NCBI RefSeq assembly: GCF_019649055.1
Contig: NW_026570253.1
Span: forward strand, 806,001 to 870,000
Source of the DNA: Paramacrobiotus metropolitanus
Taxonomy: Eukaryota > Tardigrada > Eutardigrada > Parachela > Macrobiotidae
Direction: 5' to 3'
Length of the DNA stretch: 64,000 nucleotides
The position numbers and the translations under genes are program-made. The notes beneath the pieces are model-generated. The model was given only the letters and a program-made list of their open reading frames with translations, was not told the origin of the DNA and ran no database searches. Positions 1-57,614 of the stretch are shown here, in pieces. The stretch's first letter is position 1, and every line of letters begins with the position of its first letter.

Positions 1-716
1 GTTCCACGTATGAACAGCTTCAGCACAGGAAAATCATCCTTGTTCACGTTGAACCGTTCGGCTAAATCGGCATTCTTTTTATCGCCATAGTCTAAGCAGA
101 AACATTCAGACTTTCAGTTTATTGTGTAAAGTGGTGGGGGAAATTTCCAATTAATCGTTACTGCAGGTGTAAATGTAGAAATGTACGAGTAAAACAGCAG
201 TTAAACGAAACTGTTCATAAACCTGCAGTATTCACTTCTGCAAGCAGTAAATCCGGGTTGGCATGTGCCGCTTCCGCCACTTTAATATATTCGTCGTGCT
301 TGTCGCCGTGCGGGAACACCCTGTCGAATTTGACTAGTGCCACTTTGAACAAGGGAAGGATCTGGAAAAAGTCATTGCTACATCGTATTACATTTGAAAA
401 TTTTTCATAAAACCATTCAATCTACACAAAGAATTCCAACCGCATATGTAATTTTGCCAGCTTCGTGCCGAAATGAATTGCAACTTAACTGCAATAGTAA
501 TGTCATAGTCAAGCATTCAGTCGAGTCTTGCAGTTAGCTCTGACATTAAAAATTATTATTCCATAGTTTATAAATCCAGTGGGCACCTGCCTTGTCAAAC
601 GTCCATCCATCCAGGGGAACAGATCCTTTGGCATCTTTACTCTCGGTTAAACCAGCTGCAATGAAGCAAATGCATGCAAACCAGCAAAACTTAGTTACTT
701 TGCTGCATGTATCCAT
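1..716 (-). CDS. ERP29: ERp29/Windbeutel-like ER chaperone, N-terminal part (gene runs off window start)
   Basis: The model has three exons on the minus strand: 591..716, 223..361 and <1..91. It gives the first ~118 residues. The start ATG (714-716) opens a hydrophobic signal peptide (KFCWFACICFIAAG). The ERp29 N-domain, a thioredoxin fold without a CXXC redox site, follows: GWTFDK, KVALVKFDRVFPHGDKHDEY, DLLLAEV and DYGDKKNADLAERF line up with human ERp29 and Drosophila Windbeutel. Family members are ER-lumen, non-redox, PDI-like chaperones; Windbeutel escorts Pipe out of the ER in flies. Intron 1 (362..590) appears to use a GC-AG donor (GCAGGT), because the nearby GT donor breaks the frame. 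The C-terminal D domain and any ER retention signal lie outside the window. The family call is firm; the exact function in this animal is inferred. Confidence 0.9.
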
Positions 717-19188: not shown

Positions 19189-19665
19189 GAGAACAACCGG
19201 TGTGTCCCAAGCACGCTGAGTAAGTAATTAATTTTGGTAATAAGTATTAAGTACAGTACATGTCGACTACGAGTAGCGGAGTAGGATCATGAGTAAAGTC
19301 TTTAAAGACTTATTGCAAATTTGCAATAGGTCAAACAACATTTCAACAAGTAATTATGCACTTTATACTGCATAGTTTGTCAAATCTGAGAAACTAAATT
19401 TTTCATAAACTTTCAATTTGGCAATCTACCCACTCACGGTAATTTTCAGCACAAAATACCTCATTAGTAGCTTTCCATATTTATTGTTATCCCCAAAAGC
19501 CTTGCACTGTTTCACACAGCTGCTCTGAATTCCGAGTTATTCGGTATTATTTTTTTTATACTGCTAAATGTTTTACGAGGCATTTTGCTACAATTTAATA
19601 AGCCGATGTAAACTTACGTAAACTTTCCAAACGGCTCACAGATGGAAAATCATGTACTGTATAAT

Positions 19666-20475: not shown

Positions 20476-21978
20476 TTCGAAATTTGGACACCTTTTAGTC
20501 GAAACTGCCGTTTTCGGTGAACTATGAGGCCGCCTTTAGGTAAGGTTGGGCATTCCAAGAGAAACGTCCCTTTGGAATGGATTTTGGATTGGAACGCGGA
20601 TTCCAACTTTGGAATCCAAGATATTCCACGGATTCCATGGAATGCGTTCCAATCCGCGGAATTGCAAGGTACAGTGAAGTTGAACAAATCACGACAACGA
20701 CAACTCCCCACTGCCCAGTGAACAAATCTCTACCGTGAGTGAGTGACCGAGCCACCACTATTCAGTAAACAAAATCGCTAAATAAGTGAGTAACCGAGTT
20801 AAGAGTCCTTGCCTAAGAAGTTTTAAAATAACTGCTAAGGCGATTAGTGCATTTACTAACGAATTAAATGAAATTATGTGTTCAAAGCGGCCGTGGATCA
20901 CAAGAAACGCGGAGGCGACGCCGCAAGTGTTTCTTGTAACAATAACAATGTGTCTCAAAATCTGAGCAGCAAAATCGAATTTCTGTTAAACGTTTCGAAC
21001 AATTCAGAGCGCATATAAAAACATTTCCATTTCCAACAGAAGTGTGTAATTGTTTGCAAATTAATATGGATAATACGGCAAAATATGGGTTGCGAAATAA
21101 TTGTCTTGTGATACGAGTAGAAGTATGCATGATATTTTATGAACACCGTACTAACATAGCGCACATATTCGCTGAAGCTGTTCTTTAAGTTTTGGGAAGA
21201 CTGCATGACTTGTGAATAATGTCTGGGAGCGGAATGTGATTGCGTCAGCCTAATGATCGTTTAGTCATACAAGTAGTACTGTATTATTACCGTAGACTTC
21301 ACAATCGCTACCGCTACAACACAGTGGGGCTGCCGTACACTTAAAGGCGGTACAGCGGCTTGGTCCGACGTGTACGAATGAAAACTGTTATTAGTAAAAA
21401 GAAGCGCGCCACTGCCAGCCGCGCATCTTTAATTCCCGAAACAATTTTATTTAGATATAACTCGTTAATCTTTATGACGTCTTGTGTGTTCGTGGGTTAT
21501 TCCTCATTCCATAATCCATACTATTCCCGCTCGAGCCGTATTCTACCAAATGTATAAGACGACTATCAGGCTATCAGCTTTGTTAGGTGTTCCTAAGGCC
21601 TGATAAGTTGGTGAGATTATATTTTGTGATAGCTATGGGCTTAGAGATTAGGCAATCACGTTGGGAGTGGTGATTTGTGTGTTGTTGCCTGGAGATGTGA
21701 TCGCCTCTGTTTTGGCGTCAGCGATTTATGCTTCGTGTGCTTGCGGTGGTGTTGATCGCTCGGGCAGTAAGTCATGGTGTGATCAGCGCACTTTACTCCA
21801 GCTGGGGTTTCGCTGAGATAACAATCGTAGACTTGCCGTCTTAGAGACGAACTTGATATGACTGCCAGGCACCTTTTTGCAGAGCCTCCACACGCTCACT
21901 CAGCACACTCGTCTTCCTTCTTTTGCATTCCGCTCTCTCAAAGTACTTTACCCGTAGTGTACACCTCTCTGTAAAAAA

Positions 21979-24827
21979 GTGTCTATTCTACACCGTGCTT
22001 ATTACACTGTTCACCGAACCTCACGACGGCGGAGTTCAATGATGCTTTCTTGGTTTAGCTCTGCCTTCGGGGAACCCCATGCCATGGCGGATCCCGTCAA
22101 ACCCTCCCCGGTGTCCGCCGCCGGTGATGCCCTGCGCAAGCAACTCCTCCAGGCGCGCAGCCAATCCAAAGACCCCGCCGTCGCCGCCGTGGAGGATGTG
22201 CCGTTCAATCCGCCGATGCCGTGGTTCGGAATCGACATCGGCGGATCTCTCGTCAAACTGGTCTACTTTGAACCGGAAAACGTCCTCCCCGAGGATGCGG
22301 CCTGCGAGGTGGAGCAGACCAAGATCATTCAGCGCTACCTGACCAGCAACAAAACCTACGGCGACACCGGAATCCGCGATGCGCACCTGGAGATGCGCGG
22401 CGTCCCCATCAACCACCACATTGGAACGCTGCACTTTATCCGCTTCCCCAGCAGTGCCATGGAGAAGTTTATCCATTTGGCTAAATCCAAGGGCCTGTCA
22501 GCGCTGACGACAACGGTGTGCGCCACCGGGGGTGGCGCGTTCGCCTACGAGAAGACGCTGCGACAGGAACTCAATTTGGAGTTGCATAAATTCGATGAGT
22601 TGGACTCGCTGATCAGTGGGATTCACTACATTGAATACAATCACCCCGAGGAGACATTCACCTTTGAGAATCCCCTGGATGAGGGGCAGTGCAAACGGGT
22701 GCCGCACAGTATCCGCGATCTGTATCCGTATTTGGTTGTAAATGTCGGCAGCGGTGTCAGTATTCTGCTGGTGGAATCCCGCACGAAATACCGCCGAGTT
22801 TGGGGCACGAGTATCGGTGGGGGAACGTTTATGGGGCTGTGCTGCTTGCTGACAGGATGTCAGACGTTTGAGGAGGGGATTGAGCTGGCGGCCAAGGGCG
22901 ACCATCGAAATATTGACAAACTGGTAAGGGGAAATTGTTTTTGGTTGTTGAACATGTTTTACAGTGGTGTTAATTAGATCTCACTTTCGTATACGAGCGA
23001 CTTGAGCAGATGTTTGTGAACGGGTGTCAGTTTTCTTTTCTAAAATTGACAAGTTGTCTTCGAATGGTTTTCATTAATTAGCATGTTAATATAAGTATCT
23101 GTAGAAGAGTTTCGCTGTAATCTAGACTACACGTTTTGCAAACTTTTTCAAAAGCACCGATCGTTTAATACCTTACGTGGCTGCTTGTTGATCCATATCC
23201 TGAGTTTTGGCATTTTGCCGATAAAACTGGTCTGTTCGCAGAAAAAGGGACATTTGGCTTTTGCCATTGATTTGGTACAGAAATATAGCAGTCAGTGGCT
23301 TGTGGTTTTGCTTGTTTGAGATGACTGTACCGCCGTAAGGACGTTTTGTCAGCTGAATGTCAATTTGATAGATGGATGATGAATTCGCTTTGTTGCGCTA
23401 TCTCGCATACTTTTGTGGCCTGCTCTGTCTTTCGTTAATTAAGTTCTTTTATCTGTGGTTTTACTACTGATAAGTTTGTGAAAAGTTCACGTTGTTGCTG
23501 AAAATTAAGTTTAAGTTGTAAAACGTCATAGCGTTTTATTTATGTGTAAAAAGTAAAAACACTATTGTGTAGATGCAGCATTATGAAATATGGAACACTG
23601 GTTTGACAAATTGTACGCCTTCTAGTGATTAGCAGTGCCAGTGTTTAATATCTATGCTAATGTAATATATTGTTGTAGAGTAGTTGATGTACGAGTAGCA
23701 CTAATAACTACTCTGGTATGTGTTTTTAAGTTAAGTAGTTAGATTAGGACAAAAGTCGAACTACGATTGCAGGGTCAGAGATAACATGGCTTACTTTTAT
23801 ACGAAAATATTCGTTTCTTCGTTTTCACAAATGTGTTTACAGATGGTGGTTTCAAGCCTTTTTTATTACTGTACATACCTTTAAATGAGAGAATATTTAG
23901 TAATTATGTGCTGTTGATAGTTGTGCGTTACGTTTTTCCTGCTTGCTAATGAATTTAAATTGCATGCGATTCTAACCGTCAGTAAATAACGTTTTACTGC
24001 AGACTATTAGCAGCATTTACAATTAGCAGCATTTGTAGAATTTGTTCATATGAATCTATCATAAACTGTCGTTAAACAGATAGGGTATTGCAGATTTAAT
24101 CGCAGACTATAATTAGTTAGTACTTACTTTGATCACTTTTGCCAGATGGCAAGGACATCTCTATTGGCTGACCTTTATCGGTTATGTAACTGACACTAAC
24201 TGTTATATTTTGAAATTGTAGACTAGACTAAAATGGGTACAATTTCGTGTAAAGGTCGTGTTATCGTATGTTCTTGTTTTTTTTTTATTATTTATGAGCG
24301 CTATCTCATTTACTGCTTCTCCAAGACTGTTAAAAAGATATATATATATATACATGGCACTACTCGAGCAGCTATAGCCAACGGGGATATTAATTAAGAA
24401 CTGTATTATGGTGTGTTTTTTTAAGGTACGAGACATCTACGGCGGTGACTACAGTCGTTTCAATCTTCCCGGCGATACGGTAGCAAGCAGTTTTGCTCAG
24501 ATGATGGATCCGGAGAAGCGGAAGACTGCCCGCAAAGAAGATCTGGCCCGTGCAGTGCTGGTCACTGTGACCAACAATATCGGTTCCATTGCTATGATGT
24601 GCGCCATGAATAACGGCGTCGACAAAGTGGTCTTTATGGGCAACTTCCTCCGCGTCAACGCGATCTCCATGAAGCAGCTGGCCTACGCCATGGACTATTG
24701 GTCCAAGGGCCAATGTAAGGCGCTATTCATGGAACACGAGGGATATTTCGGTGCCGTGGGCTGTCTGCTGGAGTACATGAATCTGGGACGGATAAACCAG
24801 AACAGTAGTGATGCAAAACCAGTGTAG
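21979..24827 (+). CDS. PANK: Pantothenate kinase (animal PANK type)
   Basis: Two exons, 21979..22923 and 24426..24827, encode up to 448 aa. The kinase core matches animal PANKs. It has the ATP-binding [16 protein letters not shown], then [62 protein letters not shown] and [16 protein letters not shown] near the C-terminus. The enzyme phosphorylates pantothenate (vitamin B5), the first and rate-setting step of CoA synthesis, and is usually inhibited by acyl-CoA. The start is uncertain: in-frame Met codons occur at 21979, ~22039 and ~22084. The residues before the core ([18 protein letters not shown]) are basic and could be a mitochondrial presequence or an extra 5' stretch. A poly(A) signal follows the stop closely. 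The single 1.5-kb intron holds nothing recognised. Confidence 0.95.
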
Positions 24828-24838: not shown

Positions 24839-25650
24839 TTTGTCTGTGAGATTAGCACAGATTAAGTAGTTGTCTCTTCTGACCGGTAATCTGTGCTGGG
24901 TTAATTTATTGTGAATTTACAACCGTGAGCGGGGATTTTGTGAGAAAGGTCGTCGTGGTGTTGCAGATGTTTTAGTGTTTTTAGCCGTTGATGTTTTTGT
25001 AGATGTTGCATGCTTCCATTCGCTCGGGTATTTGTTGTGAATTATTTTTGTTTAACAAAACTTATGATTTAAACTGTTTATTAAGCAATATTTGGAGGAG
25101 ACTTGTAATAAAAAAGTTGGTAGTTCCTTGCAGCAATGCTACGACATAAATAAGTACTTACTGCTAGCAAAAAACTTACTGGTGGTAGTTACTGTTGTTA
25201 TATCGCCCGCCCCTTTTGCAGTCATTACGTGAGGACAGCCACAACCAGACTGAAAGTGCAAAACTCTAAAGCAGCGAACTACTTGCTACTCGTATGACTG
25301 TGTTTTGGAATCTACTCACTTCTACTGCACAGTTTTTTACGTTCATCCCTGGATTTCAGTTGCGTCAGTTGTGGGAGGACCATCGGCCCGACAGATCGGC
25401 AATAAGCAGTCTATGTTCTTCCTGTTGGCAGTTATACTGGCCGATTGACATTTGTTGTTGTTGAGTACTCGTAGGTAGTTATCCAATGGCAATGGGTGAT
25501 GGTGTGGTCACGATGATGTCACGATCGTGTTGTCGCTTTTTAAGTGATTCACACCAACCATGAACTACTCTTCCACGGATCCTGTCATCATCCTATTTCT
25601 GGGCTTATTTTCCACTTAGTGCGGATTTGCTGTGTGAATTATCTTTTGCT
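24839..25650. other. Intergenic: PANK 3' flank and LRSAM1-like 5' flank
   Basis: About 0.8 kb between two plus-strand genes. I see no gene, RNA or clear repeat. It should contain the LRSAM1-like promoter. Confidence 0.5.
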
Positions 25651-28180
25651 ATGGGTTTAATCTGCCCTGGTGGAGAAATGGCCAATGGTTCCTCTGATAA
25701 TGTCCCCTCTCGTGTTTTATCTCCTGCAGAATACAAACGCAAACTGGAAAATGCCATGAGTCTATTAACTGATCGTCCTGACGGTGTGGCGGATGTTTCT
25801 TCGTGTGGTCTGACGAAGCTTCCCAAAGACTTCTTCCAGATTTGCGCCGTCTACGTGAAAGTGAAAGTTTTGATATCCGACAATCAAATCACTGATTTGG
25901 AAAGCGGTGGGAAAATTGAGGACGTGTCCAGAATCCGCATTCTGGATGCACATCGCAATCGCCTGGAGAAGCTGCCTGTGAATTTTGGCCTTGGTTTCAG
26001 TGCCTTACTCGAGCTGAATTTATCGGATAATCGGTTGAAAACCCTCCCGACCTCCTTCGGGAATCTGCGCGCCCTGCAGACATTATTCCTGGCCAGGAAT
26101 AATTTTTCAGAATTTCCCAATATTATCTGCGAGTGTCGACAGCTGCAGGAATTGGATATTTCCGAAAATTCCCTTTCCAAACTTCCCTTAACGTTCCATC
26201 AGCTGCGTCGCCTGCAGACCTTCGTGTTCGACCACGACAAAGTGCTGTATCCCTCCAAAGACGTCACGGTGCTCGGCGTGGAGGCCATTCTGAAGAAGAT
26301 TTGTCAGGATGACGGCAAAGAGTGGCTGAGCGATGTGCCGGTGTTAAATAATCTGCCGCCAGCGACACGGACTCGTTCCGTGGATTATGGGATGCGCCAG
26401 CAGGAACAGGCCATTGCCGAGGCCCTGTCCAAGTCGGTCAGTTCTGTGACGATTTTGGAGCGATATCGCGAGGAGGAGGCGCGTCTGCAGAATGCCGTGG
26501 CGCGCTACAAGGATGATGATAATATCAAAAAGAAGGAAGTGATGAAATTTCGCGCGGCCATAGAAGAAGACGATAAGCGGCATTTGGAGAGTATCCATAA
26601 AGTGAAAGTGCGCGAACAAGATGTGAGTGCATTAAGTAATTCTTAGTCCGGTAAAAGGAATTTGTTTGCACACAAATCGAAATTAGTGAAAATTAAATTA
26701 GTTTTTTCTGTTGTGCAGGTAATTTTGATTTTTATGGGTTGTTTAATTATTGTTTTGTAAGTTTTCTTGTCTTTTTTTTGCTTTTTCATTGCAGCATTGA
26801 TTTCTTTTCGGATACGGTCTACGTTTGTCCAAAATTCCACTTTTTCGAATTTTATGAATGATGCCTTACTGTGATCTACTCTTAGTGTTCCGCTTACAGA
26901 TTGTGCTATTTCCGAAGCTACTTTGTTTGTGGCATTCATTTGAAATTGCGATGACCGTGTGCTGCATGAATTTGTTTTTCTTTCTGTCTACTTGTTTTGT
27001 GAGATTTGTCAGCATGCACCATTAATTTGACAAGGGTTCACTGTGAATTTTTTGCCTTTGCTTGACTTGCTGTTATTTGTTGCAGATGCTCATGCGCTCG
27101 CTTCAGGAACGAGAAAAAATGGAAGTGGAACTGCAGAAGCTGGCCCTCAACGTGGAAATGGGCAAGCAGTCCCTTCTGGAAGCTCTGCGCAGTATGGAAG
27201 CCCATTCCCAGCGGTTACTGACTCAGTTGACTTCGCTGAGCGAAGAGCGCGCCAAATACTACAAATTCTACGAAGCCGAATCCAAGAAAGCGGATAACGC
27301 CTGGCGCACTCTACTACCGCAGATGGAAACATCGAAACGCGACATGCTTCTCCTCGCTATGAAAGCGCAGTTAGAAGACTCCGAGAAATTCTCCATAATG
27401 TACAAACGATTAATGGACAACCTGCGTGCTCAGAACGATAACGTCATCAACATGTACCGCGCGGAAGAACAATTGTTCCCCTCGATATTAGCTAAACAGC
27501 AAGCTCAACAAGAAAACATCATCAATCACATGCTGATGGATGAGAATGTCCACAAAGAAATGTTCCGTGAGCTCCAGTTGAAATCCGATGCTGTCTATAA
27601 CCGGATAGTCAGTGATCTGATTCTCTTGGAGAATGAACTGGCAACGTTGTCCCTACTGGAGCAGAAGCAGACGGAAGAACGTAGCGTGGTGGTGAAGAAG
27701 TCGTTAGAAGATGAACGGCTGCAGTTAGCTAAAATGTACAAAAAGCTGATGGTCGAGAAGGAACAGCGGGAAGCCCAGCTGAGGCGAATTATGCAGGATA
27801 TGGAAAAAGAAGCAGCCAAACACGCTGAATACTTCTGGTTGGCACAGTACGGCCGCTTGATGGAACTGATGCCGGAGACGTTGAATAAACTCCCGGAGAC
27901 GAAGAAGGTGGAGATCGATCTGGATCCGAGTACATCCAAAGGAAAAGGGGAGCCGCCGAAGGCCACCAGTCCAACCGCGACGGCATTGCCGCAGACACTG
28001 CATCTGGAGACCATATGTAGTGTGTGCATGGAGCGGCCCTCCACCGAAATCTTCCTGCCCTGTGGACACATTTGCTGCTGCAAGGTATGCAGTGAGCCAT
28101 TGACAGAGTGTCCACTGTGCCGGGCGGAAATCGTGCAGAAAATGACGTTGAACAAATCCGGCAACGAAGAGATAGTGTGA
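25651..28180 (+). CDS. LRSAM1: LRSAM1-like leucine-rich-repeat/RING E3 ubiquitin ligase lacking the SAM domain
   Basis: Two exons, 25651..26622 and 27086..28180, give ~688 aa. Residues ~65-190 are leucine-rich repeats (LLELNLSDNRLKTLPTSFGN, LQELDISENSLSKLP). A short spacer and a long coiled coil follow (~260-580, rich in E, K, Q, R), ending EYFWLAQYGRLMELMP, which matches human LRSAM1. The C-terminus is a RING of the CxxC...CGHxCCCxxC...CPLCR type (~634-671). Human LRSAM1 ubiquitinates TSG101 and takes part in endosomal sorting and bacterial autophagy. In the human protein a SAM domain and a P(T/S)AP-type motif lie between coiled coil and RING. Here only a ~40-residue Ser/Thr/Pro linker is present. 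Start codons at 25651 and 25678 are both possible. Confidence 0.9.
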
Positions 28181-41985: not shown

Positions 41986-42825
41986 GTAAGCAAAATTTTC
42001 GTAAAACCGAGTTAACTATTTACTGAAGTAAATCGCGGTTAACGCTTTAATTCAAGAAATTTCGTTGCGGGATTTTGTTTTAATGATCTGTTTCTGAATT
42101 TTTACAAATTATTCTTATGACAGTATTTAAAGAGTTAGTAGCTTTTCTCTGGCTTTGAATATACATGTCAGTTGATAGATGAGCAGGTCAGCCGAAATCA
42201 GCAGCGAAGGAATTACTACATAGTAGCGATTACGAATTGTTTATCGAAGCACTACGCAATACCGTATACATCTTTAAGCTTAAATGCATAATATCCCCGC
42301 CGGACAATTCTGCTGACTGGATCAGCAGAAAAGGCGTCAATATCCGATGGATAATCGCTCGCGTTTTTTAAGTAGCATATTGCTGGCTGTTCCAAAAAAC
42401 ATAACAATGGAAGATGATTGTTCGTGGGAAGTGAGAGAGCGCGGAAGACATACACACATGACACACACACAGTCTGTTCTTACGAGCACACAATTCGATC
42501 GCGCGCGCGTCGTTGTATTTTCTCCGTCGCCGCTTAATTCACATTCACTTCTCTATCAGCGCCAAGAGTGCCGATAAATGGTTTTGATATGACGCCAGAT
42601 TGCACCTATTACCTTCGCTGGCCATCGTGTTCAGCTGGTCAGTTGTGATTGAGTGGATGCGTAATGAAACGCAGTGCACAATTTAATTTACCCAACGATG
42701 CACGGTGTGCAGTGTGATCTGGCCACCCGGCGTAAATCACGTTGCCCCTTCCCATGAGGTCGCTTCCAGTGTGTTGTAACTTGTGTGGTATTCCTTCCGT
42801 GGCCCTGTTCATTCCGTAACCGACA

Positions 42826-45800
42826 ATGATGGATAATCATGTAGATCCTGTACGAACATTTCGCACATTTCTACCAACATCGGGCGATTATGATCCCGCT
42901 CGTGAGCTGGAAATTTATCAACATTATAGAGTAAGTTACAGCAGTGCTTTCTTTACGATTGCGGTTAAATGAAATGTGTTTGTCGGCCTTGTAAACGGAT
43001 ATAAATTAAACGGACTTTAGATGTTGGTTTTTATGTATTTTAAACGGATCGATTACTGTACTGTTTTTCACAGTCGGACTTAACCAATAAGTAATAACCT
43101 AAGTCAATATTTTTCAAATTTGTGATTAATTTGTTAAAATTGTGATTAATTTGTTAAATGTGCATGTATTTTGCTCAAGGGATTTCATTTGCATTTTAGC
43201 TTTTCATAGTGCTATCATACCTTGTTGCTGTTTACGTTGCGGTTACGAATACCGTCATATATTGATGGAAGTATTTACTTACAAATCGAGGTTTACCATT
43301 TAGGTGTAACATGGATGTTCGTCTCTTAAAAATATTGTTGTTTTAACGTTATCGGAAACCTGGTGTCAGTGTTGTTGGGTGGCATGTTTTTCCCTGCTCA
43401 GAAAACACTTTTAGAGATTGTCCACATCTGTAAAGTTTCTTGTGTAACTTTCTGCTTGTCTAACTTGTGTTGTGATGACTGCGACCTTTGCACCGCATGG
43501 ACGTATATTTCCTAACATATTGACCAGAATGCTAATAATAGTTTCAAGTCGAGTATTTGTGCCAGTTATGGCCATTTGCACCTTGCTGGAAAACATTTTC
43601 GGATGACCACTCGAAATATCCAGTTGCTCTGTTTGCTTTCCGTCTGACTTGATCGATGGAAGCCGGGCTTTATATGCCAGAGTTTATTAGAATCTGCCGT
43701 GGACAGGCCCAATATATGTGCCGTTCACGGTATCAGGTGGATGGGCAGCAGAAAGTGTATCCTTTGTCCTCATCCTATTGCCCGGTTCATTTGGCCTTTT
43801 ATGCATATACGCGCTCGTAATAAGCGCACTGTGAAGGTGGGGTAAACAGGTTTCCCTTCTCTTCCACCTGAAACACCCTCCGACAGCTGACGTTTGCTCA
43901 ATTTTGATTCTCGCAGAAACAGCCATAACTGTCACTTTCCGTAGATTAATTCCAAGGATTATTTATCCATACAGCTGAGCCCGTGAGAAAACTTCTGACC
44001 TTCGGTTGATTACATGCTCTTTAGAGATTATTTATTTTTTTGTAGCAGTTGCTATTTACAACTATCCGTAGACACGTGCGTAACGGTGTGTTAGTCTACT
44101 CTTACAGTTGTTTTTTAAACTGTCTTCCTTATACGGGCGGGTAGTGGCTTAATCCTCATAGATTTCGCTGATAAATGACCGGAAGTGCTGTTGCCTACTC
44201 GCGGTTGACCCAGGAAATGTCCGCACTCGTCATTGATTAAAGCAGTACGCGAATTGGAAGAGCCAAACTGTAGTAGCTAAGAAATGTTTTTAAAATTTCG
44301 CAGCTCAAACCAACACGAAAATTTCCACCTTTTTAAGAGAAGGCTAGCAAAATTCTTATAAACTGTCCAATGCAAGAAGCTAAGCCCTAAGGTTGACAAC
44401 GAGGTTAAATTAGGTTTTTCTTTTATAATATTTTCACGGTTAATTGATGGTGACTTTTGATTTAGAATCCCACGTTCCAAGACAGCATGGATGGACCGGC
44501 AGCGCATCCGCACACGAACGGTTCTACCTACGGTTCGTATCAGACTTTGTCCAATGACAACCCAACCAGAAGCGTATCAACCATCTCTCCGGTTTCAAAA
44601 GCAGATGTCCCCACGTCGGGAAAAACCAACCCGGCATTCGTCCATGAATCCTCCGTGGACACCGACTCAGGCGGTGTGCATGTGTATCCCGAACGCAATG
44701 GTCATTACGTGACCAAACCGTCGTCCCGTCCGCACAGCAAAAGCCCTGCTCATTCCTCCTCCAATCCTCAGTATTCGCCCTCGGAAGACCGGGAAGTGCC
44801 CGCTTACTATATGCCTGTGAATGCCCATAGAAAGCTTCTCAGGTAGGCAACTCAGTGCTTTTATTGCCACATAAGAAAGTTTACATGTTAGTAATTTATT
44901 ACTGTAATATTATGCTGAATATTGCATATGTTTTCGTTTGCATTTTCGTATGTTCAACAGTCTCGCTGAACGATTTAGTTAGCTTACCTTAATGCCTAAA
45001 TATTTTTGCATTTTGTGCTCGTATTTATGCAACGTTTATGAAAAGCTTGAAAACTGGCGAAAAGTGCCATAAGTGTTATTGAATCTCAGTTCCCTTTTAA
45101 GCGGTCGTTTTGTGGCGTGTGTGGTTTTGCCTAGTTAGTCGTATCTTCAAACAAATTACCGATAGATCTGACATCTTGACGGAGCATTTTAAACGGATAA
45201 TCGTTGATCGTTACATGCGCCGTGCCGCGAAAATCTAATTGACCAACCTTGGTCGCCACTTAACCAGCCAAATTATGAGAAGCACTCTCTTGCTGCTCAC
45301 ACATACAGAGTACACACACCAAGTTGTCTCTTCCTGAAAATATTTTAATTATGTGTTTCTCTTTGACTTGCAGAGGGGAAATTCTTTACGTTACCAAAGA
45401 CACCCGCAACAGTGGTGCCAAATGTTGGAGGCGGACAATATGTATTAGCGGCATATGTTTGACTGTGATTCTTGCGATTATACTGGCTAGTCTTGGCGCA
45501 AGTACGTACATTAACACTTTGTACTTGTACTTCAACTGTTTTTTCGTGTTATAATAGTATACTTTGTGTGCTTTGTTTTATAAATGCATAGACCGATTGA
45601 TTAAGGGCAAACAATGCAAGAGAGTCTCTTGTTGACAGATTGTTATATCATAATTGGTGTATAAGGTCAAAGTACCGGCGGTATAATATAATTAGCCGAA
45701 AAAAATTATAATCTAATCAGAGGAACGCGCTGAGGCTTTTTTATGAATACGACCGTGAGAACTTGTCAATGAAACCAGTAATCTGTGAAAAATGAAGTAA

Positions 45801-48800
45801 TACGTACAAATTACTGTTGGCTTTGTTTATATCAAAGCCGGCTTGTGTTGTGTAAGAATATGACGGTGGTGGCTGTCTGTGTTTTTTCTCTCCGGCTGTG
45901 GTAGCAGCGTAAGACATTTGTGTGTCGCTGACGACACCGGAAAAAAACTATCTTCGGACAGGTCAACAATATACCAGAGAAATATTATCACAGTCCAGAC
46001 TGATTGTTATGGGCTGACAAGTCAGCTTTCATTGAATTCTTGGCTCACGGTACAATACTTGATCGTGGCAGTTTTTATAAGAAAATGTTTATACTGGTTT
46101 TGATGGTTTGAACAATTATCTAAAATCTGACGGTTTGCAGCACATTTGTAACATCAAGAAACTTCCAGTAAAAAAATGTGTACTTCTGTTCGTGGTGCAA
46201 GGGCTAATATTCGTGTTATTTTGTTGTTTGTTATGAGCAAAGCCAGCAAGGAAATTATTAATAAGCTTTACTGCTTAATATAAAAGGTTACTTAGTTTGA
46301 ACATATCGTTGAATATATCAAAATTTCTTGCCCGCTTTCCAATGCGCTAGCGCTGATTTTCAGAACTTCGTGATTATTTCATCGAGCACTTTCCAGGAGA
46401 AATACAAAATAATCCGAAGTTAAAATTTTAAGTAACGTTAATTATAACTTTTACGCAGTCCAGTGCAGGCTTTTCTTGTTATTCTGAATTTCTGATGCGC
46501 AGTATGATAGTTATGTGGCATGTTTGATAAAGACTGTGATAACATTATTCAGAGAAATTTTATTAACGATTTAGTGAAATATCTCTGTGTTGTTTCAGCT
46601 GGCGTTATTTTTAATACATCGTCTAAGAAGGAGGAGCTTCGGATGCCGGCATTGCGTAGTCCGGCGGGACTGGATGTCGATGTGCATGAAGTGCAGGAAG
46701 TGGACAATATGGACAACAGTGGCCAGCCCAAGATAGCTGCCGCTGTTATTCCAAGTGCTGTCAGGGAGCCCAAAGCGGATGAGGCGCTGCAAGAGTGGCG
46801 ACGACAACATCCGTTCGAGCTATCCGCCGACAATGGCTCCGTACAGAGCACGCGCCGCCCATCGGCTGGCGGTGTCACACTCGCTGGGCTGGAAGCGGTC
46901 AGTCTCCCGTCCGATGGAGGTACAGTCCAACGCAGCCCAGTGGGGCAAATTAAGTGTAGTTAGTAACCATTTGTTATAGTAAAAATTTATTATAGTTAAA
47001 ATTTTGTTAAAACTATTATATTACTTACTTGTACACTGTTATGCAGCGGATTCGGTCAAATTTTAAAATATTGGATTTGTAGCAAGATCTATTGTATAAT
47101 TGCCATTAATCTTTCTGCATAAAGCATTACAAGTAGTTTTAGAGGTTCAGGTAAGAATCACAGGTAACTTCAGCTGCGAGCTTACCACCGCATCGAATAA
47201 CAAGTGTTATAATAACAAGAACACTATCTTGTCCACGGATAAAAATAAGATCAGCAGACATTATTCTGTGGCTTTGAAATTCGTAGTTTTCTCTCCCTGC
47301 TTAAAACAGTGAGAGGAGTAAACCGCCGCGTATCCGCTGATAAATGTTCGAATGTCCTGGTCGGCAGATAACACCGGCAATCCTGGACGCTGGTTCGCTA
47401 GACCGTGACACCAATTTCAACAAAGCGCCGACGACATGGGCATGTAGAATGCATTATTCGGGGTATAATACGAGTATGTTTCCTAAGCCGACCAGCGCTG
47501 ATCGGGCCAAGATGCGCGTCCTCACGAAAACGTGTTAAATAATCCTTTATAGCAATATTTATTATGCAAAGTGTAAAGACGATTGTGTCTAAGGCGATGG
47601 TATAATACACGGGGCCTTTATCCTTATGTATATATACGTGTTTGTGTATGTTGATAGTGCCTGAAGCCATTGAAGGGGAACTACGCATCATGAACATGGA
47701 CTTCCAAGCGGCACTGGCTGACAGTAAATCCTGGATATTTCAGTACACATCCAACGACCTAACTGTTTACGTGAGTGTTGTCTATCATTAAACACTGCGC
47801 TTTGTCTGCCTGATAAAGAGCGCAGCAGTGAAAACAATTTGACCTTTTTGTCCATATTGAACGGACAGTTGACGCTGGCAGTCAGTGACCTTGTTGTGGT
47901 CGGCATTGCTCTGTTTGTCGTGTATTCTTAAGTTTGTAGCAAAAAAATTAGCGCCATATTATTGTTGTTTCAATACCGGAAGTTTAATAAAAATCGGTTA
48001 TTGTTAAAGATTATACCTAAATTTCGATTTTTATGTATATATTTTTGTCCCTACTGCTACCAGGAACGATAATACAGACAGCAGCAGAGAAATGAATGTA
48101 AATCTCCTGTACTTTTAGATGAACGAATTGTTTGCCAAAGCACTGAATGGAGCGAATTACAATGCTACGAGAATTATGAGCTTGCGGTAGGAAATCGAAT
48201 TTTTCACTGTGTTCAAGTAATGGTTTTAGATACCGACTGATTTTAAGGGACGAAACAATTTTTTATTTACAGTTTAATTATTAGAAAAACTATTACATTG
48301 TTTACTTATTATTTTATTATTCCTGTGTTTATAAAACTTCGTTATTCCATGTTTTCAGGTCAGGAAGTGTGATAGCAAAGTATCAGTCCTTATGGAATCA
48401 AGCACCGCAAAACTGGGATGTTAGTGTTATTGCCATTTTAAACAATCATTTGGATCTCAACAATAACTTCATAGGTGAGTATCGTATATAACGCCGTTTA
48501 CCGTTCGAAAGTAAAGTCTATTGTTTGTTGCAGGAAATTATCTTATTGATCGGAACAGTTTATCGGCAAAAAGTACGATATGGACTACAGGCAAAAAGCA
48601 GACATATGACGCTTTACCACGGGATATGATTTTGCAGGTATTTTTTACACATGTCGAGTGGATAATGGCGGTTGTTCACATTTGTGCGAATTTGACCTAC
48701 TGGAAATGCGACAGTATTGTTTGTGCCCGGATAATAAAACTTTCAAACTAATTAACGGAACCACATGCGTGCGGATCACTGGAGTTGTGGAGCAAGAAGG

Positions 48801-51800
48801 TGAGTTAATTATGGTTTATGTAGCTATTTTAAGAAGCTGGTAAACTCTTTGTGAAAGCATGATTATTTCGACAACTTTTAAAATTTTGAATTGATTCCTG
48901 CATCTGTTGTATTTTGCTTTCTTTCGCTTTTGATTGATTTTGAAGATCGTTTTTGCGTGATGCTTTTATTTTCGGACACGTTTTCGGACTGTATTACGTA
49001 TAAGTATTTTAGCGGGAACTACAAAAGCGCCGAATATGGAATCAGCCACAGCAACGTCTGGTTTAGAGACTCTACCGACGGAACGTAGTACTCACTTAAT
49101 AACTAAAACATCCGTTACCGAACCAGAGACCTCCGGCACAAGATCTTCGACTGCTACAACGGTAAACATCCCTTTCGCATCGTCTTCTTCCGGACAGGAA
49201 CACACCGCAACAACCACAACACTGGTTTCTACTAGCGCGACAACTTTAACCGGCATGACCTTTCCGCTTCTCCAGGACCACACAGTCGCCCTCAACAGCA
49301 CCCCCGGCTTGACCTCGCTATTGCCCGCACTGTCATCCGAATCAGCGTCAGTTACTGTAACAACGGAATCTGTACACACCAACACTTTTCCGCAACCTAC
49401 GGCGACTGCAACGACGGAATTGCTTGTCGCCGCGAGCACTTTGGAAAGCGTTCATACGCCGTCTCCAGCGATGCCGATGGGGCATTTGGACGTGGCGATT
49501 ATCCATCCCAATGAAACTGTCCAGGCGGAATCCACCCATGTTGTCGTGTCCGCTAATTCATCGGCGGCATTTGTGGCATTGCCGGTGGAGTCCACTAGGA
49601 ATGTGTCGGTGGCAAATAACACGTTTTTTGGTTTTGTTCCGCTGGACCAAGAAAATAGTCAGCATGAGGGATGGACGATGCCGCCCAATACCAGCACCAC
49701 TGCAGGTCAGTTTCAGTTATCTTTATAATATAAATTAATTACCGGTTGAATTCCGATTATCAATACAAATACTAAAAATTACTTTGCCGTCATTTCATAA
49801 CAAACAAATTATTCCTTTTTTTTTAATTTTTAAACCTTTTCCCCGATTCTGATGGTTTTCTAAATAAAATGTTGAGGTGGTGTGAACTGAACTATAATTA
49901 CGTACGTCGACAAAATAGATGATGGATCGGACATTCATCATGAATCCATCCTGGCCGTGTCGACAACAGCTGCCGTTGCGACAACTGTACCCACCATTCC
50001 AGATACCTCACCAATGACCTTTGCCACTACGGCAGCATCCCAGCCATTATTAACGGTGACCACAACCGTTCCTCTCATTTTGACGACTGCTCCAGTTACT
50101 CCGCCACCCGTTGCTTCTGTCGCCATCGCAGTTGCGCAGTGTTATAGCGACGAATTTCTCTGCCGTAAGGAGAACCGTTGTGTTCCGCACTTGGTGGTGT
50201 GTAACGGTGTGCCGGAGTGCCAGGATGGCACCGATGAGGCCAACTGCACCGACTGCCATCCCAACTTCCGGTGCTTGTCCGGAGCATGTGTACCCATTGG
50301 GCTTGTGGTCAGTCTCAATGATTACGTATCCTCTTTTCCACAAATATATATAAGATTTCAGTCTTCTGCTGTTGATACGTCAAAGTTTGATAAAACTAAG
50401 AAGTGTACTCTATGCACATTATGCATGAAATGTACTTCTTGTGCAGTGCGATGGTATGGAAGACTGCAGTGATGGATCTGATGAGCTTGGCTGCACACAA
50501 AGCGTCTGCCAAAAGTCGGGAATGTTCCAGTGTATTACGGGATACTGTCTGGAAAACGCTAACCGCTGCGATGGAGCAGGCGACTGCTATTCCATGGGCT
50601 TGCCGGTTGACGAGTTAAACTGCATTGGAACGGATGCTAATCACACTTGCAGTGGTCCCAATCAGTTTACCTGCCAACAGAGCCGACGTTGTATTCCACT
50701 GCACTGGAGGTAAGGGAATGTTTTGTAAACTGCAATTTAGTATTATGCATGGAAGCTCACTAAGTAAACTAACACCGAATCAAAAACGTTTCGGGCATTG
50801 GTTTGATTAACACAAACAGAGTAATAAAACATTGGTGTGTTTCTGATGCATTTGATTTTGCGCTAGGTGTAATGGGCGAATTGACTGTTTGAATCAAGAA
50901 GACGAAGTTAACTGCCAGTGTGATGTCGGAAAAATTTCTTGTGCTGGCGGTGGCGGTTGCATTGATGCGAGGTAAGGAATACATTTTATACGATAAAGTT
51001 TTGGTGACTTTTTAATAATGCATAAGTTCTCAGGTTGCGCTGCAATGGAGTGGTGGACTGTCCAGATGGATACAGCGACGAAACAGACTGCTTCCAGCTA
51101 CAAAATTCTGGATTAGTGCAAGCCCGAATGTTGGATACCGAATGGCACAATCTCTGCACGGACGGATGGAACCAGCGAGCGGCCAATAACATTTGCCAAA
51201 AGCTTGGATACCGGTAAACTCACATTATAGACATTAAACAGCGTCCTTAAATGAAGTAGCACCTCTTCTTATAGTGACATAGTCATGTGCGTTAAGCAAC
51301 TAATTTGACAAACACAACAACATCCGCTTTAAATAGTTATTCCTCTGAGCTAAAAAAGCCGATGTTACCTGACTGTTTGTGATTCGATGTTGCACAATAA
51401 TACTCGCGGTCAGTTAAGAACGAACAAAGTTGCAAACAAAGGTCAATGATTAATCATCCTTTGCGTCATTTTGCCAAATAATTTCAATTACAGTGTTAGG
51501 AAATAAGAATAAATGGTAAACAAACAAACAATTAATAATAATAATAATAGAGTTAAAGTGATATAATTAACATTTATTGCCATACTAAAATATTCCTGTA
51601 CTGTGACACTTTTATAATTTTGATTATTAAAACGGTAATTCAACAATACTGTTTATGCCAATTTTTATATAATAAGTTGATAACTTCAAATGTTCGCATT
51701 AGACCGGCCATGTCAGTGTTCACCGTTCCTGCTCCAGCCACCGATACCGGCAACATTTTCTGGCTGAAACCGGACTTCAATGCGACGCAGACCTTGCTGC

Positions 51801-54800
51801 AGCAGCTGCACATCACCACGCCCAACACCTGCCTCGATCCTAATTCCCGAGCCGGGATCACTTGTGAACGCTTCCGGTGCCAAATCGCCAATGACCCCGG
51901 TGTCGGCAATCAGGTCAAACTGCAATCAGCTATCGTGAAGATTATGTTCGAAGGCGATGCCTTCACGGTCTGCAATGGATACCTGGTGGCACCCATGTGG
52001 ATTCTGACTTCCGCTAGCTGTTTGCAAAATAGGTACTGAACTCATTTATCTTCTAAAAAATAATGTGGATTAGCATTCTGAAAATTCTGTGACGTATTTT
52101 AATTACTTTGTAGCGTATTACAATATTTGGACAACTTTATCTGTAGAGTATTCTTCGCAACTGATTTTCGTGTAAATTGTTTTAGACCGGCCAGTACGAT
52201 AAAGTTGACCTTTTATACCAATACTTTCCACACCAACGTGACTGCGGTGCATCTTCATCCCAATCATTTGACGGTGCGCATGCTGCACAATTACGATTTT
52301 GCTCTATTAAAAGTGGCTGGCGTAGTCCCGGCCAATTTTGTTCCCGTTTGTCTGCCGTCCAATTCCAACCCGTCCTTGTGCAAACTGGCGAAATTGTACG
52401 ATAACAGTACCGTGGTGGCATCGCAGCTGCAACGCGTGGCCGAAATGGACTGCAATTCGAAGCGGAATTATGCCGGATTGGTCAGTGGAAGTATGGAGTG
52501 TTGGCGCAGCTCACTGCCCATGTGTGATGTATGTCGTCTTCTGACAAAAAAATACAGTAACTGTTATTAAACTATTTAAATTCCCATACCAAAATATGAT
52601 AATACTGTAATAATACGTCTTAATTTCGCTTTCCTTATCGCTCTTCGAAAGCTCAGTTTTTAATAAAGGAGTTTTGTCAATAGGTACTCGTATAACAAAA
52701 CACTCGTGAACAGATTTTGCGGACCACTGTAACCTGCATGGCAGAGCCGATCGATAGCTTCCTACATAGTCTGTACTCTGTACCGATGTACTGTATATCA
52801 AAAGCACCCTTGTATGAAAAGCTTCGCATGTAAATCACTGTTTCAAATATTCCGATCCATCTTAAATCACACTTAGAATATGTATGGTATTTTTGTCGTA
52901 AAGCAATTTCAAGTTCAAGTGCAATGTTTTTTTGCAGGAGGACGCCGTGTCGCCGATGATTTGTCAGAGCATCTTAGGTGCATGGGAAATCCGCGGCTTC
53001 CTCAGCTACCAACACCACTGCGGCTACTTCACCCCCAAACCCCTGGTCTTCGCCAATTTGACCTACGCCGTCGACTGGATCCGAGATCTCATCGGACCAG
53101 CGCTGTCCAACGTGCCGCGCACCGATGAATCTGTCTTTTATCCCTACATGGAACCAGTTGCCGCCGACTCTCACGTTATCTTCACTACAACCGCGCACGA
53201 GCTGCACACTACCATCACGCCGCCGATAACGACTGTGACGACGACAGTGACCTCGCGGAAGACTGTGCATTATGATCTGGATGAGGTGACAGCGGAGTAC
53301 GGGAATGACACGTACAATATTACCACGTCGGCACCGGTAGAACTGTCGAATAGCACGACAGCGGGATTCGCCGCGGTATTGTTCAATGTCTTCGGAAATA
53401 TCACCGGTGTGCCGGTGAATACGACTGTGGCCACAATGCTCGTACCGGACACGACGACATCACCATCGCCATTCAAACTGCAGTGTCCTGATGGTATGCT
53501 GTCATGACAAACAATAAATTTCTTTTGTTTTACGATAATTTTGCGACTTATGGTTAGATGTAGTCAGTTGATGATCTCTTATAGTACTAGTAATTTTTTC
53601 TCTTTTTCAAGGCATGTTTTTACCGTCTTCTTACTTCAAAATTATTAAAACATAATTTTGCTTGTGTTTGTGGTCAAGAACTTTTGAATAATTTCAGTAA
53701 TTAAATAAGGGGATAGTTTGATTATGCTTTTTCCGAATATAAAGTTACGTTCCAGCCCCAATGGTTCTGCAAAGTTTTATTAAATGTTTTCCAAGGCCTG
53801 ATTCAGTGCGTTTGTTTGATTTAGGAACACCGCTTCTGACCGAATATTTATGCGACGGAATCTTCCAGTGCAGCGACGGTTGGGACGAGAAGCCGGACAT
53901 TTGCCTGAACATCAGCTGCCCGGCGGCGTCGCACATCCGCTGCACCAACGGCCGCTGCGTGGACAGCCGCACCGTGTGCGATGCGCGCGCCCAGTGTCCG
54001 GCCGGCGCCAGCGATGAAGTAGGCTGTAAAGATTGCAACATGAACACCCACTTCAAGTGTCTGGGAGACCGCTGCATCCCGCTCTCGTGGATGTGTGACG
54101 GCGAGAAGGACTGCCAGTACGGTGACGACGAATCCAACCAGAGGTGCCAAGTGTGCGCCAACGCCACCAATCAGTTCCACTGTACATACGGTGGAGGGTG
54201 TGTCCCGTGGGAAAAGGTGTGCGATGGGGCGTTCGATTGTCCGGATTTCTCCGATGAGAGTCAGTGCGCCCGTGTCAACGGGACGATGGGCGGTGTGGTG
54301 GAGATGCGGGCCCGTGGATCGGAGTGGATGGCGGTGTGTGACAGTGGGACGACGGAGCGGAATGATCAATGGGGCGTTGGATTGTGTCATGATTTGGGTT
54401 TTGATTACGCCAATCGAACGAAGGCGATCGGGGTGGGGAAGCGGCCGGGGTTTGTCATCGGACGGGATGCGACGACGGCCAACGTCAATTTGTATTTAGC
54501 TGCTAAGAATGTCACAACGGAGTGCAACGGATCGCTGGCTTTGTCTGTAAATTGCGGGTTTCAGAGTGAGTCCTACTAGTGCAACTGCATTTTTTCTTTC
54601 TTAAACCTCTATGATTTTTCTTATGTACAATATCTCTTCCTGTTGCATTTTTCAAAAAATAAAAATATTTCCCATGTATATGGTTTGTATACATGATTAT
54701 TATACATGCTTTGACATAATTGGCTCGAATTTTGCGAATGCCTTATCAATTCTGCAGCTAAACTTCGGTTAATAGGTAACGTACTTCTTTAATTCTTAAA

Positions 54801-56278
54801 CACAGAAGGGTTTAAACGCACTTTTGAATGCCTAAATCGCTGATCCCTTTTCAGAACGCGGCAACTGGCAGTTCGATCTGACGGACCTCGACCCATCTGT
54901 GGCATACAAAGCCGCGCCCAACGAGTACCGCCACATTGTCCTCTTGGTGTACTTGAAGGGTGACCTGGAAGATTGCGTCGGCGTTATATTGAATTCGCGC
55001 TGGATTCTGACTTCCTACGAATGCATCTCTCAAGCGTAGGTGGTTGCTTAAATATTTCTCTGATAGCGCTCCAGGTGACCTTTGTGCTTGTACGGTTGTT
55101 CAGGGATCCCACGATGACGCCAGTGGACTGGGCGCTCTTTTCCAATCCCAACTCCATGGATCAGGGCTCCTTCCACTTGATTCGACGGTTCGTCGCCCAT
55201 CCCAGTGTCAAGTTTAATATCTACTTTTCCAAACATGATCTGGTGTTGGTGGAAGCCATGGAAAGCCTAAAAATGGGTTCTAGTTCGGAGGATAATGCGG
55301 CTGTGTGGACGCCGAGAAGTCCAGTCCCGCTCAACGCGTCGTGTGTATCCTATGGATACTTGTACTCAAGTACGTTGAACGAAATAAAAAGTTTGCAAGA
55401 CTCGAAACTTCCTAGATGCTCTGCAGTCTGCGGAGTCATGCCGGCCATCTACGTATGCGAGTTTTGCGGCTGTTGTATGAACTTCTATCATTATTAAAAC
55501 CAGGTTTATTCAAACGTCGTTTTATTTATCGCAAATTTAAGTACAACACGAACTTTGTTACGTAATTTGGGCTGTGAACGAACCAACAGATTGTGCCGAC
55601 TGCGTTCGGACATTCTTGTCCAAGTCCAGTAAATGTGCAATTGTGCATCGAAAGCAAGGTAGATTGACATACTCGTAATTGTACTCGTATACGATCCTGT
55701 GCTGCATGCACTCTTTTGTCCACTTATTGCTATCTCATTAATCTCCTTTGATGGCGAAAATAAATTAGCGTTTGATTACTGATGAGTTTTGTAACTAAGC
55801 TCAGTTTGTTTTGTAGTAACGGAAATTCCTGGCACACGGATGAGTAGACGGTCGGAAGGACAGCTATATTTCTGGAAGACTCCGCTGATATCCCCGGAGC
55901 AGTGCAATCAGGCTAGCAATTACAACGGAATGATCACCGACTCTATGCTGTGTGGCGGTTTCCGCAACACCACGCACAGAAGTCCCTGCATGGTAAAGTT
56001 TGAAACTTGAGTGCGAGTGTAGACCGACTGCAAAACTGATAAAATAACATCGTAAAAACGGAATAATCTGTCGCCAGGGTCGAGTGGATGGCGCGCCGGT
56101 AATTTGTCGGAATGCCAATCAGTTGTGGGAAGTGGTGGGCATCCGCAGTTTCCAGCCGGTGTGTGATTCTCTCTGGATGGCCCCCTCGGTGTACACGGAC
56201 ATTTACCAGCACCGGAAATGGATCGGTGATGTAATCGGTCCTTATCTGACCATGAGCCAAATGACCACGACCGAATAG
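42826..56278 (+). CDS. Type II transmembrane mosaic protein: SEA, EGF, LDLa, SRCR and two inactive trypsin-like domains
   Basis: Twenty-two exons: 42826..42930, 44466..44842, 45374..45501, 46599..46919, 47658..47770, 48119..48186, 48359..48474, 48534..48572, 48638..48799, 49013..49705, 49919..50307, 50447..50709, 50867..50971, 51034..51213, 51703..52032, 52186..52528, 52938..53493, 53825..54565, 54855..55035, 55104..55369, 55817..55992 and 56078..56278; 1,950 aa. Order: cytoplasmic tail, membrane anchor (~183-203), SEA-like region (~310-409), EGF-like domain, long Ser/Thr-rich mucin-like stretch, five LDLa repeats, SRCR, trypsin-like domain 1, Thr-rich linker, four LDLa, SRCR, trypsin-like domain 2. 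The layout recalls corin, enteropeptidase and Nudel. Domain 1 has LTSASC for LTAAHC and DAVSP for DSGGP; domain 2 has LTSYEC and GRVDGAP. Only the catalytic Asp remains in each (NYDFALL, KHDLVLV), so neither should cleave peptides. A receptor, scaffold or decoy role at the cell surface is inferred. No orthologue is named with confidence. Confidence 0.9.
43121..43160. repeat. 20-bp tandem repeat, two copies
   Basis: TTGTGATTAATTTGTTAAA(A/T) is present twice in direct succession inside the first intron of the pseudoprotease gene. It is a simple local duplication with no evident function. Confidence 0.8.
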
Positions 56279-56347
56279 TTTTGTTAGCATAATGTGCAAA
56301 ATGCTCATCCGCTGTTTCGTGTTTGTAAATTTTAAGCAAGTTGTTTG

Positions 56348-56353
56348 ATTAAA
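56348..56353 (+). terminator. Poly(A) signal ATTAAA of the pseudoprotease gene
   Basis: ATTAAA, the common variant signal, lies 70 bp past the stop codon. It falls in the ~360-bp convergent gap before the UBC9 gene. Confidence 0.45.
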
Positions 56354-56641
56354 GTGTGAAAAATTGTATTTTTACTTCAGTACAGCCACAGTCAATTACA
56401 GTATACAAAGAATTCAGTCCATTCACAAACATCGGAGATAAGTTCTTTTAGAAGAAATCTGATACCTCAAATGGAGTAGACTGGGCGTAATACAGATAAA
56501 AGTGGATTTAGAAAATGAACATCAATACGAAGCCTACCAATCAGTCTTATATCATCAGTATACTGAACCGAGATTCGCAGAACATTGCGATAATTAAACA
56601 CTAAACGCAGAGCAGTTGAAGCATCTCCATCCACGCACAGA

Positions 56642-57614
56642 TTAACTCTTGGCAGCTGGTTTAACATTGGCCTGACTGAATTTCTTAGCCTGTTCCTTCA
56701 CTTTGGCCACGTATTCCTCGCGGTTCTTGGTGTAAGCGCCGTACGCTTCGGCCTGCGCCGGATCCTTCTCGTTGGGATTGACCAGCAGATCCTGAATGCC
56801 CAGCAGGATCTCCTTCACCGTGATGCCCGAGCGCCAGCCCTTGTCCTCGTCCAGAATAGACAGACACACCGTGCCGCTCGGATACACATTGGGATGGAAC
56901 AACGGCGGCTCGAAGACGCATTTGGGCGGTGTGGCCGGATAATCATCGCGGAATTTCATCTTCAGATGGTAGTAGCTGCCCGATGGTGGATGCTCCCAGA
57001 TGGAACCCTTGGGGCCTGCCGAAACAGTAGAAGCAAAATTATGCCATCAAAACAATCTATTAAAAATGCAATTTAACAATAAGTCAGATGATTATTGTCA
57101 TCAAACGATAAAAACTTGAATCCACTGCAGGTAAATACTAACATTTTCTGTGCTTCATCAAATGAAACCCGAAAACTTCCAAAAAATATTCTAGGACGAA
57201 GGTAATTCGGCACCTATGTACCTGGAATGAGGCAGTCCCAGATAAACTCGTTCAGGGTGCCATCAGGATTTTCCGTCGGCTTGGCCACAAACCTGGAGGA
57301 GGCTTTTGCCAATTAGTATCAATCATTTAGTGGTTTACAACCAAAAGAAGCGTTTGTACCATAAGGCACAAATACATACCCAAACGGATGATCTTTGCGC
57401 CTAAAAGCAGAAAAAATCCAATTAATTACAGTAAAATGCCAGAGACCGATGTGCACACTGCCCAGAATTTTACGAGTTTCGGCAATTGGTGAGTTGCCGA
57501 CTAATACTATATAGCCTATCCAAGCTATGCAGTAGTGCAGGCTTCTGAACAAAGTCGAGAGATTCCTTACCATGTTTTGCGTTCTTCCCTCAAACGATTC
57601 AGCGCCAGACTCAT
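56642..57614 (-). CDS. UBE2I: SUMO-conjugating enzyme UBC9
   Basis: Four minus-strand exons: 57571..57614, 57380..57400, 57222..57292 and 56642..57015; 169 aa, against 158 aa for human UBC9. Exon 2 is only 21 nt. The sequence follows UBC9 closely: [50 protein letters not shown] with the catalytic Cys at ~96, HPN upstream of it, and [14 protein letters not shown]9 receives SUMO from SAE1/UBA2 and transfers it to lysines in psi-K-x-E motifs, mostly in nuclear proteins. Two differences stand out: a longer loop after GPKGSIWE ([11 protein letters not shown] in place of the shorter GGLFKL), and a tail of ~10 residues ending in [11 protein letters not shown]9 and ASF1 are divergently arranged across ~1.1 kb. 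Confidence 0.96.

Follow-up and report, generated by a model that had tools for sequence, protein, structure and literature searches.

The window considered here is a stretch of 64,000 nucleotides from the tardigrade Paramacrobiotus metropolitanus (RefSeq assembly GCF_019649055.1, contig NW_026570253.1, positions 806,001 to 870,000 of the forward strand), and the subject of this analysis is a plus-strand gene at positions 42826-56278 of it, which encodes a membrane mosaic protein with two trypsin-like domains that are both very unlikely to be active. When its 22 predicted exons are joined at the splice sites, with the phase checked, they give 1950 codons plus a stop codon in a frame that is open throughout, and the introns (59-1535 bases) have consistent phases and GT-AG borders in 21 of 21 cases. 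The ATG at 42826 and the TAG finishing at 56278 are in agreement with the gene boundaries given in a preliminary description of this DNA, but the segments 51703-53493 and 54855-56278, which were taken as exons there, consist of three and four exons, respectively. An ATTAAA hexamer is present downstream of the stop codon, at 56348. Before exon 18 there is a second possible acceptor that seems, by eye, to be in frame; its use would extend the start of the second module and leave the protease domains untouched.

The encoded protein is a type II membrane protein, having a tail, a transmembrane segment, a SEA domain, an EGF-like domain and a Ser/Thr-rich stalk, followed by two LDLa-SRCR-trypsin-like modules (Table 1). 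The type II orientation is indicated by WRR on the N-terminal flank of the transmembrane segment. This is the architecture of the type II transmembrane serine proteases (TTSPs), with an N-terminal tail, one transmembrane segment, stem domains and a C-terminal S1 fold, and the top matches in the Protein Data Bank (PDB) are TMPRSS11D for each trypsin-like domain and TMPRSS2 for the SRCR-protease region of module 1. The two LDLa-SRCR-trypsin modules of the preliminary description are recovered in full for module 1; in module 2 the SRCR-like region is weak and under the profile cutoff, with TMPRSS13 as its top PDB match (E 0.031), and the first LDLa repeat has, by eye, four cysteines only. That description did not mention the SEA domain, the EGF-like domain or the fact that both activation sites are lost. 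For the SEA part the PDB search gives one weak match, 1ivz (E 0.56). The EGF-like region matches FXa_inhibition at 22.7 bits, which is under the Pfam cutoff of 33.4, and matches a chain of LRP6 in the PDB with E 2.5e-6 for the whole chain and 0.0019 for the best stretch.

In domain 1, the alignments with TMPRSS11D and TMPRSS2 show that His57 is replaced by Ser1125 (LTSASC; 52016-52018), that Asp102 is retained as Asp1167 and that Ser195 is replaced by Ala1247 (CDEDAVSP; 52944-52946), with Pro as residue 189 and Glu at the oxyanion position 193. In domain 2, His57 is replaced by Glu1732 (LTSYEC; 55019-55021), Asp102 is retained as Asp1782 (55237-55239) and residue 189 is Ser. The Ser loop of this domain reads CMGRVDGAP (Asp1888 at 56087-56089), in which Ser is absent between C191 and P198, with a spacing of 11 between C191 and C201, against the usual 10. 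The additional residue in this loop allows either Asp or Val to be placed at position 195, and the HMMER alignment puts Val there, with the Asp inserted and Gly193 retained. The alignments thus bear out the earlier observation that His and Ser are replaced and Asp is kept in both domains; the more specific reading that Ser is replaced by Asp in domain 2 follows from one alignment and not from the other, and the absence of Ser holds in both.

The R-IVGG activation site and Asp189 are also missing in both domains, and domain 2 has no match among the NCBIfam profiles. As several sites have been lost in each domain, leftover serine-protease activity is very unlikely, and both domains are predicted to be catalytically dead. 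No unsplit GDSGG-like, DSGGP, TAAHC-like or R-IVGG-like motif occurs in the six frames of positions 42000-57000, a scan that is blind to motifs interrupted by an intron; a loose HC pattern gives two matches there, both on the minus strand. Without an unsplit catalytic motif in the locus, catalysis is unlikely to be regained by a different choice of exons, and the exon choices restoring GDSGGP and TAAHC that the preliminary description had considered find no support within this locus. With His, Ser and an unsplit activation motif lacking, the protein has the layout of a TTSP and lacks the features of the enzyme.

The cysteines of four canonical disulfide bridges, which we take to be 42-58, 136-201, 168-182 and 191-220, are found in both domains, and the C42-C58 spacing is 16 in each. 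The stalk cysteine and the Cys122 equivalent, which presumably pair as in TTSPs, are both present in module 1 (FRC; PVCLP) and both gone from module 2. Aligned with each other, the two domains agree in 59 of 252 positions (23% identity) and have two introns in common, at the same position and phase (C58+3, phase 2; C191+1, phase 0), with an additional intron in domain 2 (exon 20/21, phase 1) that domain 1 does not have. The common intron at C191+1 lies directly before the Ser loop, and the exon boundary there is therefore trustworthy. The gene shows that a mosaic protein can retain the cysteines of the fold although both of its protease domains are predicted to have lost catalysis.

The preliminary description compared the protein with Nudel and the polyserases, but the insect proteins SPH54 and SerPH364, as they are tabulated, are closer in layout and are already inactive (PMC1761132, PMC11172050). 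Honey bee SPH54 has the tabulated architecture TM-LC-EGF-13LC-5LDLA-SR-SPH, with the motifs ASYSC and NDEGAP (Zou et al. 2006, PMC1761132). Its listed domain order and its LDLa count of five are those of module 1, His57 is replaced by Ser (ASYSC), the Ser loop NDEGAP is without Ser195, and its motifs have SYxC and GAP in common with domain 2. It differs in having one protease-like domain, SEA does not appear in its row, and its length of 2733 carries a "?" (a possible prediction error). For Tenebrio SerPH364 the domains SEA; EGF; LDL; SRCR and the triad S-D-E are given, and this protein is proposed, together with SerPH570, as a type II membrane homolog (PMC11172050). It shares these four domain types and the replacement of His57 by Ser with the tardigrade protein; its Ser195 is replaced by Glu, and it differs in being listed as a single SPH. 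Module 1 has the combined design TM-SEA-EGF-LC-5LDLa-SRCR-SPH, with His57 replaced, where the SEA domain comes from the beetle record and the five LDLa repeats from the bee record, and where layout and motifs, not a tree, are compared. Two S1-like domains are present here, as opposed to the single one of SPH54 and SerPH364.

A tandem arrangement of two S1 domains, both listed as SPH, is described for Tenebrio pSerPH608, which, according to its entry, differs in being secreted, in having Sushi domains, in keeping His in the first domain only and in keeping an L-I activation site (PMC11172050). As this tandem protein and the inactive SPH54 and SerPH364 have already been reported, the doubly inactive state is less exceptional than the preliminary description had claimed. 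SPH54 transcripts change, without a uniform direction, in bumblebees infected with Crithidia: one is listed as up and one as down in a first table, and one as down in a second (PMC4302123). A two-module SPH54-like protein was not found in the accessible parts of the open-access literature searched; relatives of module 2 were not found in a scan of a collection of viral contigs, nor relatives of the SRCR-protease region of module 1 in a scan of a collection of genome contigs. The two-module version, together with a GSVIA site of the matriptase type in the SEA domain and a tail that carries NPx[FY] three times, seems to be novel. In the insect inventories, as far as they are tabulated, membrane-anchored dead serine proteases come without a stated function, and the present gene is a fully modelled case with two heads, motifs in the tail and a likely site of SEA cleavage, for which binding and internalisation are directly testable.

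It is most likely, with a probability of about 0.5, that this protein is a non-catalytic surface binding receptor. The GSVIA sequence (residues 373-377; 48363-48377) lies inside the Pfam SEA match and contains the G-S cleavage motif. In matriptase, the SEA domain is cut at Gly149-Ser150 in GSVIA, and the halves are described as remaining attached non-covalently (PMC3799725). The presence of the same five residues within a SEA match suggests the same behaviour, as in a SEA domain of the self-cleaving type. The tail contains NPTF (44466-44477), NPAF (44628-44639) and NPQY (44763-44774), and three NPx[FY] motifs are reached by none of 20000 shuffles of its 181 residues (shuffle mean 0.084). The anatomy and the loss of catalysis can be read from the sequence; for SEA cleavage, ligand binding and uptake we infer the following course of events. 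The SEA domain would be cleaved between Gly and Ser of GSVIA, with the halves held together non-covalently. The mucin-like stalk and the linker would keep the two LDLa-SRCR-pseudotrypsin heads off the membrane, where they may bind, but not cut, an extracellular partner, for example a matrix component, a protease or an inhibitor of one. Through its three NPx[FY] motifs, the tail could then connect the bound complex with adaptors of the PTB type, which would lead to endocytosis or signalling. The protein would thus be a receptor built from TTSP parts, with a first module of the insect SPH54/SerPH364 design. Of the roles considered in the preliminary description, a receptor or scaffold is plausible, and nothing was found that points specifically to an inhibitor.

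Several observations weigh against this interpretation. The NPx[FY] motif was selected after the tail had been inspected and is one of three motif types counted, so its enrichment is suggestive only; two of the three motifs are NPxF, YxxPhi occurs twice, as expected by chance (two are reached in 11286 of 20000 shuffles), and the acidic dileucine motif is absent from the 181-residue tail. The proposed SEA cleavage rests on five residues and on a Pfam match that covers positions 4-74 of a profile of 106. If Gly193 is kept, as in the HMMER alignment, the oxyanion hole of domain 2 need not be lost. Pseudoproteases elsewhere serve as cofactors or adhesion proteins. The predicted structure of exon 18 alone (mean pLDDT 35.8) is uninformative and was not used.

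Coupling to adaptors or uptake is the bolder version of the receptor interpretation, and its main rival is an adhesion or matrix-organising protein at an epithelial or cuticle surface, in which the dead domains would be structural contacts, without uptake. Such a role agrees with the Ser/Thr-rich stalk, with the 30 N-glycosylation sequons beyond the transmembrane segment and with the mosaic LDLa/SRCR design, and a beetle protein of similar domain order is listed with its highest expression at two stages, larvae II and early pupae (52 RPKM in both; PMC11172050). However, three NPx[FY] motifs in a tail of 181 residues suggest adaptor binding, and adhesion is considered a possible but rather unlikely function. 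It is doubtful that the protein is a double-headed endocytic receptor, in which both heads would mimic a protease and capture extracellular targets, either active proteases or inhibitors of proteases, and the tail with its NPx[FY] motifs would internalise the complex; if true, an enzyme family would have been converted into an LDLR-like clearance receptor. The cytoplasmic NPxY motif (NPQY, plus NPTF and NPAF) is shared with LDLR-type endocytic receptors, but there is no YWTD propeller among the Pfam matches and the tail is N-terminal, whereas a YWTD propeller and a type I orientation are taken by us as features of LDLR-type receptors.

The remaining alternatives concern the origin and the integrity of the gene. 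Nudel of Drosophila and of Tenebrio is listed as a mosaic protein that has LDLa repeats and a pair of protease-like domains, of which the second is dead (PMC11172050, PMC10036332), and it is a membrane protein in which the two protease-like domains alternate with the LDLa repeats, so the gene could be a Nudel orthologue that has lost the activity of the first domain in this lineage. The second domain of beetle Nudel is listed as T-E-D, with an acidic residue at 195 to be compared with the Asp of domain 2 under one alignment (PMC11172050), and the nudel family is reported from both tardigrades and 0.73 of the arthropod proteomes examined, and from no nematodes (PMC5531438). However, the listed order in Drosophila and beetle is transmembrane segment, LDLa, active protease, LDLa, dead protease, and SEA, EGF and SRCR are not among the domains listed (PMC11172050, PMC10036332); the Drosophila protein also ends with LDLa repeats, which do not follow domain 2 here, and the order of module 1 fits the records of SPH54 and SerPH364, not Nudel. 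The layout within the family does vary, as a planthopper nudel-like protein is described with one protease domain and a signal peptide (PMC4085338). Domain 1, with Ser at 57 and Ala at 195, does not correspond to the active first S1 domain of Nudel. DUF1986, which we take to be a nudel-associated domain, scores 13.5 bits in the exon 15 frame and 16.3 bits in module 2, against a cutoff of 25.2, and is unlisted for module 1. With the first domain dead, the layout different and DUF1986 below cutoff, Nudel was rejected as the main explanation, and loss of activity in a Nudel orthologue is very improbable. The polyserases, with their tandem S1 domains, and the TTSPs, with a type II transmembrane segment, stem and S1 domain, resemble the protein in layout, but active domains are described for the polyserases (two in polyserase-1, one in polyserase-2, and polyserase-3 cuts substrates; PMC1435904), whereas both domains are dead here. 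It is also improbable that the gene encodes a single-module protein terminating in intron 17 and that module 2 is part of a second isoform or of a different transcript. Read-through of the exon 17 donor adds GMLS before an in-frame stop at 53505 and an AATAAA at 53513 (53505-53518, plus strand), and the bee and beetle counterparts are listed with one protease-like domain (PMC1761132, PMC11172050). Yet the exon 17/18 junction is GT-AG and in phase, module 2 on its own could start at MVLQSFIKCF but lacks, by eye, an evident signal peptide, and poly(A)-type hexamers are frequent (23 matches in 42826-56700, 19 of them intronic). An early-ending isoform with the first dead module only, produced at intron 17, is possible. 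Decay of the gene, with drifting protease domains, is the least credible explanation: the missing catalytic residues, the weak second SRCR and the incomplete first LDLa repeat of module 2 would fit it, but the 22 exons are open with clean splice sites, the canonical disulfide cysteines and the two common introns are kept, and the bee and beetle inventories contain comparable dead proteins (PMC1761132, PMC11172050). The GC content at third codon positions of exons 15-22 (0.60-0.71) is also above the intron GC content of 0.36, though that of exons 1-14 is lower (0.23-0.58). The gene, described earlier as maintained and not decayed, indeed looks maintained, being spliced in phase with its fold cysteines and two intron positions kept.

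Table 1 Features of the gene and of the encoded protein, in positions of the window.
Feature	Residues	Positions	Strand	Evidence
Exons 1-6		42826-42930, 44466-44842, 45374-45501, 46599-46919, 47658-47770, 48119-48186	+	predicted from sequence
Exons 7-12		48359-48474, 48534-48572, 48638-48799, 49013-49705, 49919-50307, 50447-50709	+	predicted from sequence
Exons 13-18		50867-50971, 51034-51213, 51703-52032, 52186-52528, 52938-53493, 53825-54565	+	predicted from sequence
Exons 19-22		54855-55035, 55104-55369, 55817-55992, 56078-56278	+	predicted from sequence
Cytoplasmic tail	1-181	42826..45434	+	exons 1-3
Transmembrane segment	about 182-208	45435..46612	+	highest hydropathy peak of the protein; across exon 3/4 junction
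SEA domain	about 316-420	47672..48565	+	Pfam SEA 4.3e-8, aa 316-384, profile 4-74 of 106
EGF-like / FXa-inhibition-type domain	428-466	48652..48768	+	Pfam FXa_inhibition 1.1e-4
Ser/Thr-rich stalk	477-781 (305 aa)	48799..50139	+	32.8% S+T, Cys-free
Module 1, five LDLa repeats	782-979	50140..51091	+	Pfam PF00057, 5 stretches, 5e-40
Module 1, SRCR	about 981-1079	51095..51880	+	Pfam SRCR 1.6e-8, SRCR_2 8.7e-7; TMPRSS2 SRCR+protease alignment
Module 1, trypsin-like domain 1	about 1080-1299	51881..53102	+	Pfam Trypsin 7.9e-10; TMPRSS11D (PDB) 2.2e-12
Ser/Thr-rich inter-module linker	1301-1424	53106..53477	+	29% S+T, Cys-free
Module 2, LDLa array	1427-1577	53484..54267	+	Pfam PF00057, 4 stretches, 8.6e-24
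Module 2, weak SRCR-like region	about 1579-1673	54271..54555	+	SRCR_2 18.2 bits, cutoff 27
Module 2, trypsin-like domain 2	about 1677-1938	54855..56239	+	Pfam Trypsin 3.3e-19; TMPRSS11D (PDB) 6.1e-14

The upstream neighbour of the gene is an epoxide hydrolase on the plus strand, and downstream, convergent with it, is the frame of an E2 ubiquitin-conjugating enzyme (56645-57046, minus strand; 1.7e-33). Elsewhere in the window, an RNase MRP RNA gene (16574-16818, minus strand; full-length Rfam RF00030, 97.3 bits, E 6e-26) sits between plus-strand open frames for a PHD finger (12747-13112) and a SET domain (17134-17646), whose layout we take to be reminiscent of an NSD-type histone methyltransferase. 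A frame of 271 residues at 18415-19227 (minus strand), for which no Pfam match is found at E 0.01, presumably resembles part of an invertebrate retroelement protein. A pantothenate-kinase (Fumble) frame is present at 21958-22974 (plus strand; 2.3e-68), and at 25564-28177, on the same strand, leucine-rich repeats precede a RING finger that lies in the next frame, a layout that we take to be like that of LRSAM1.

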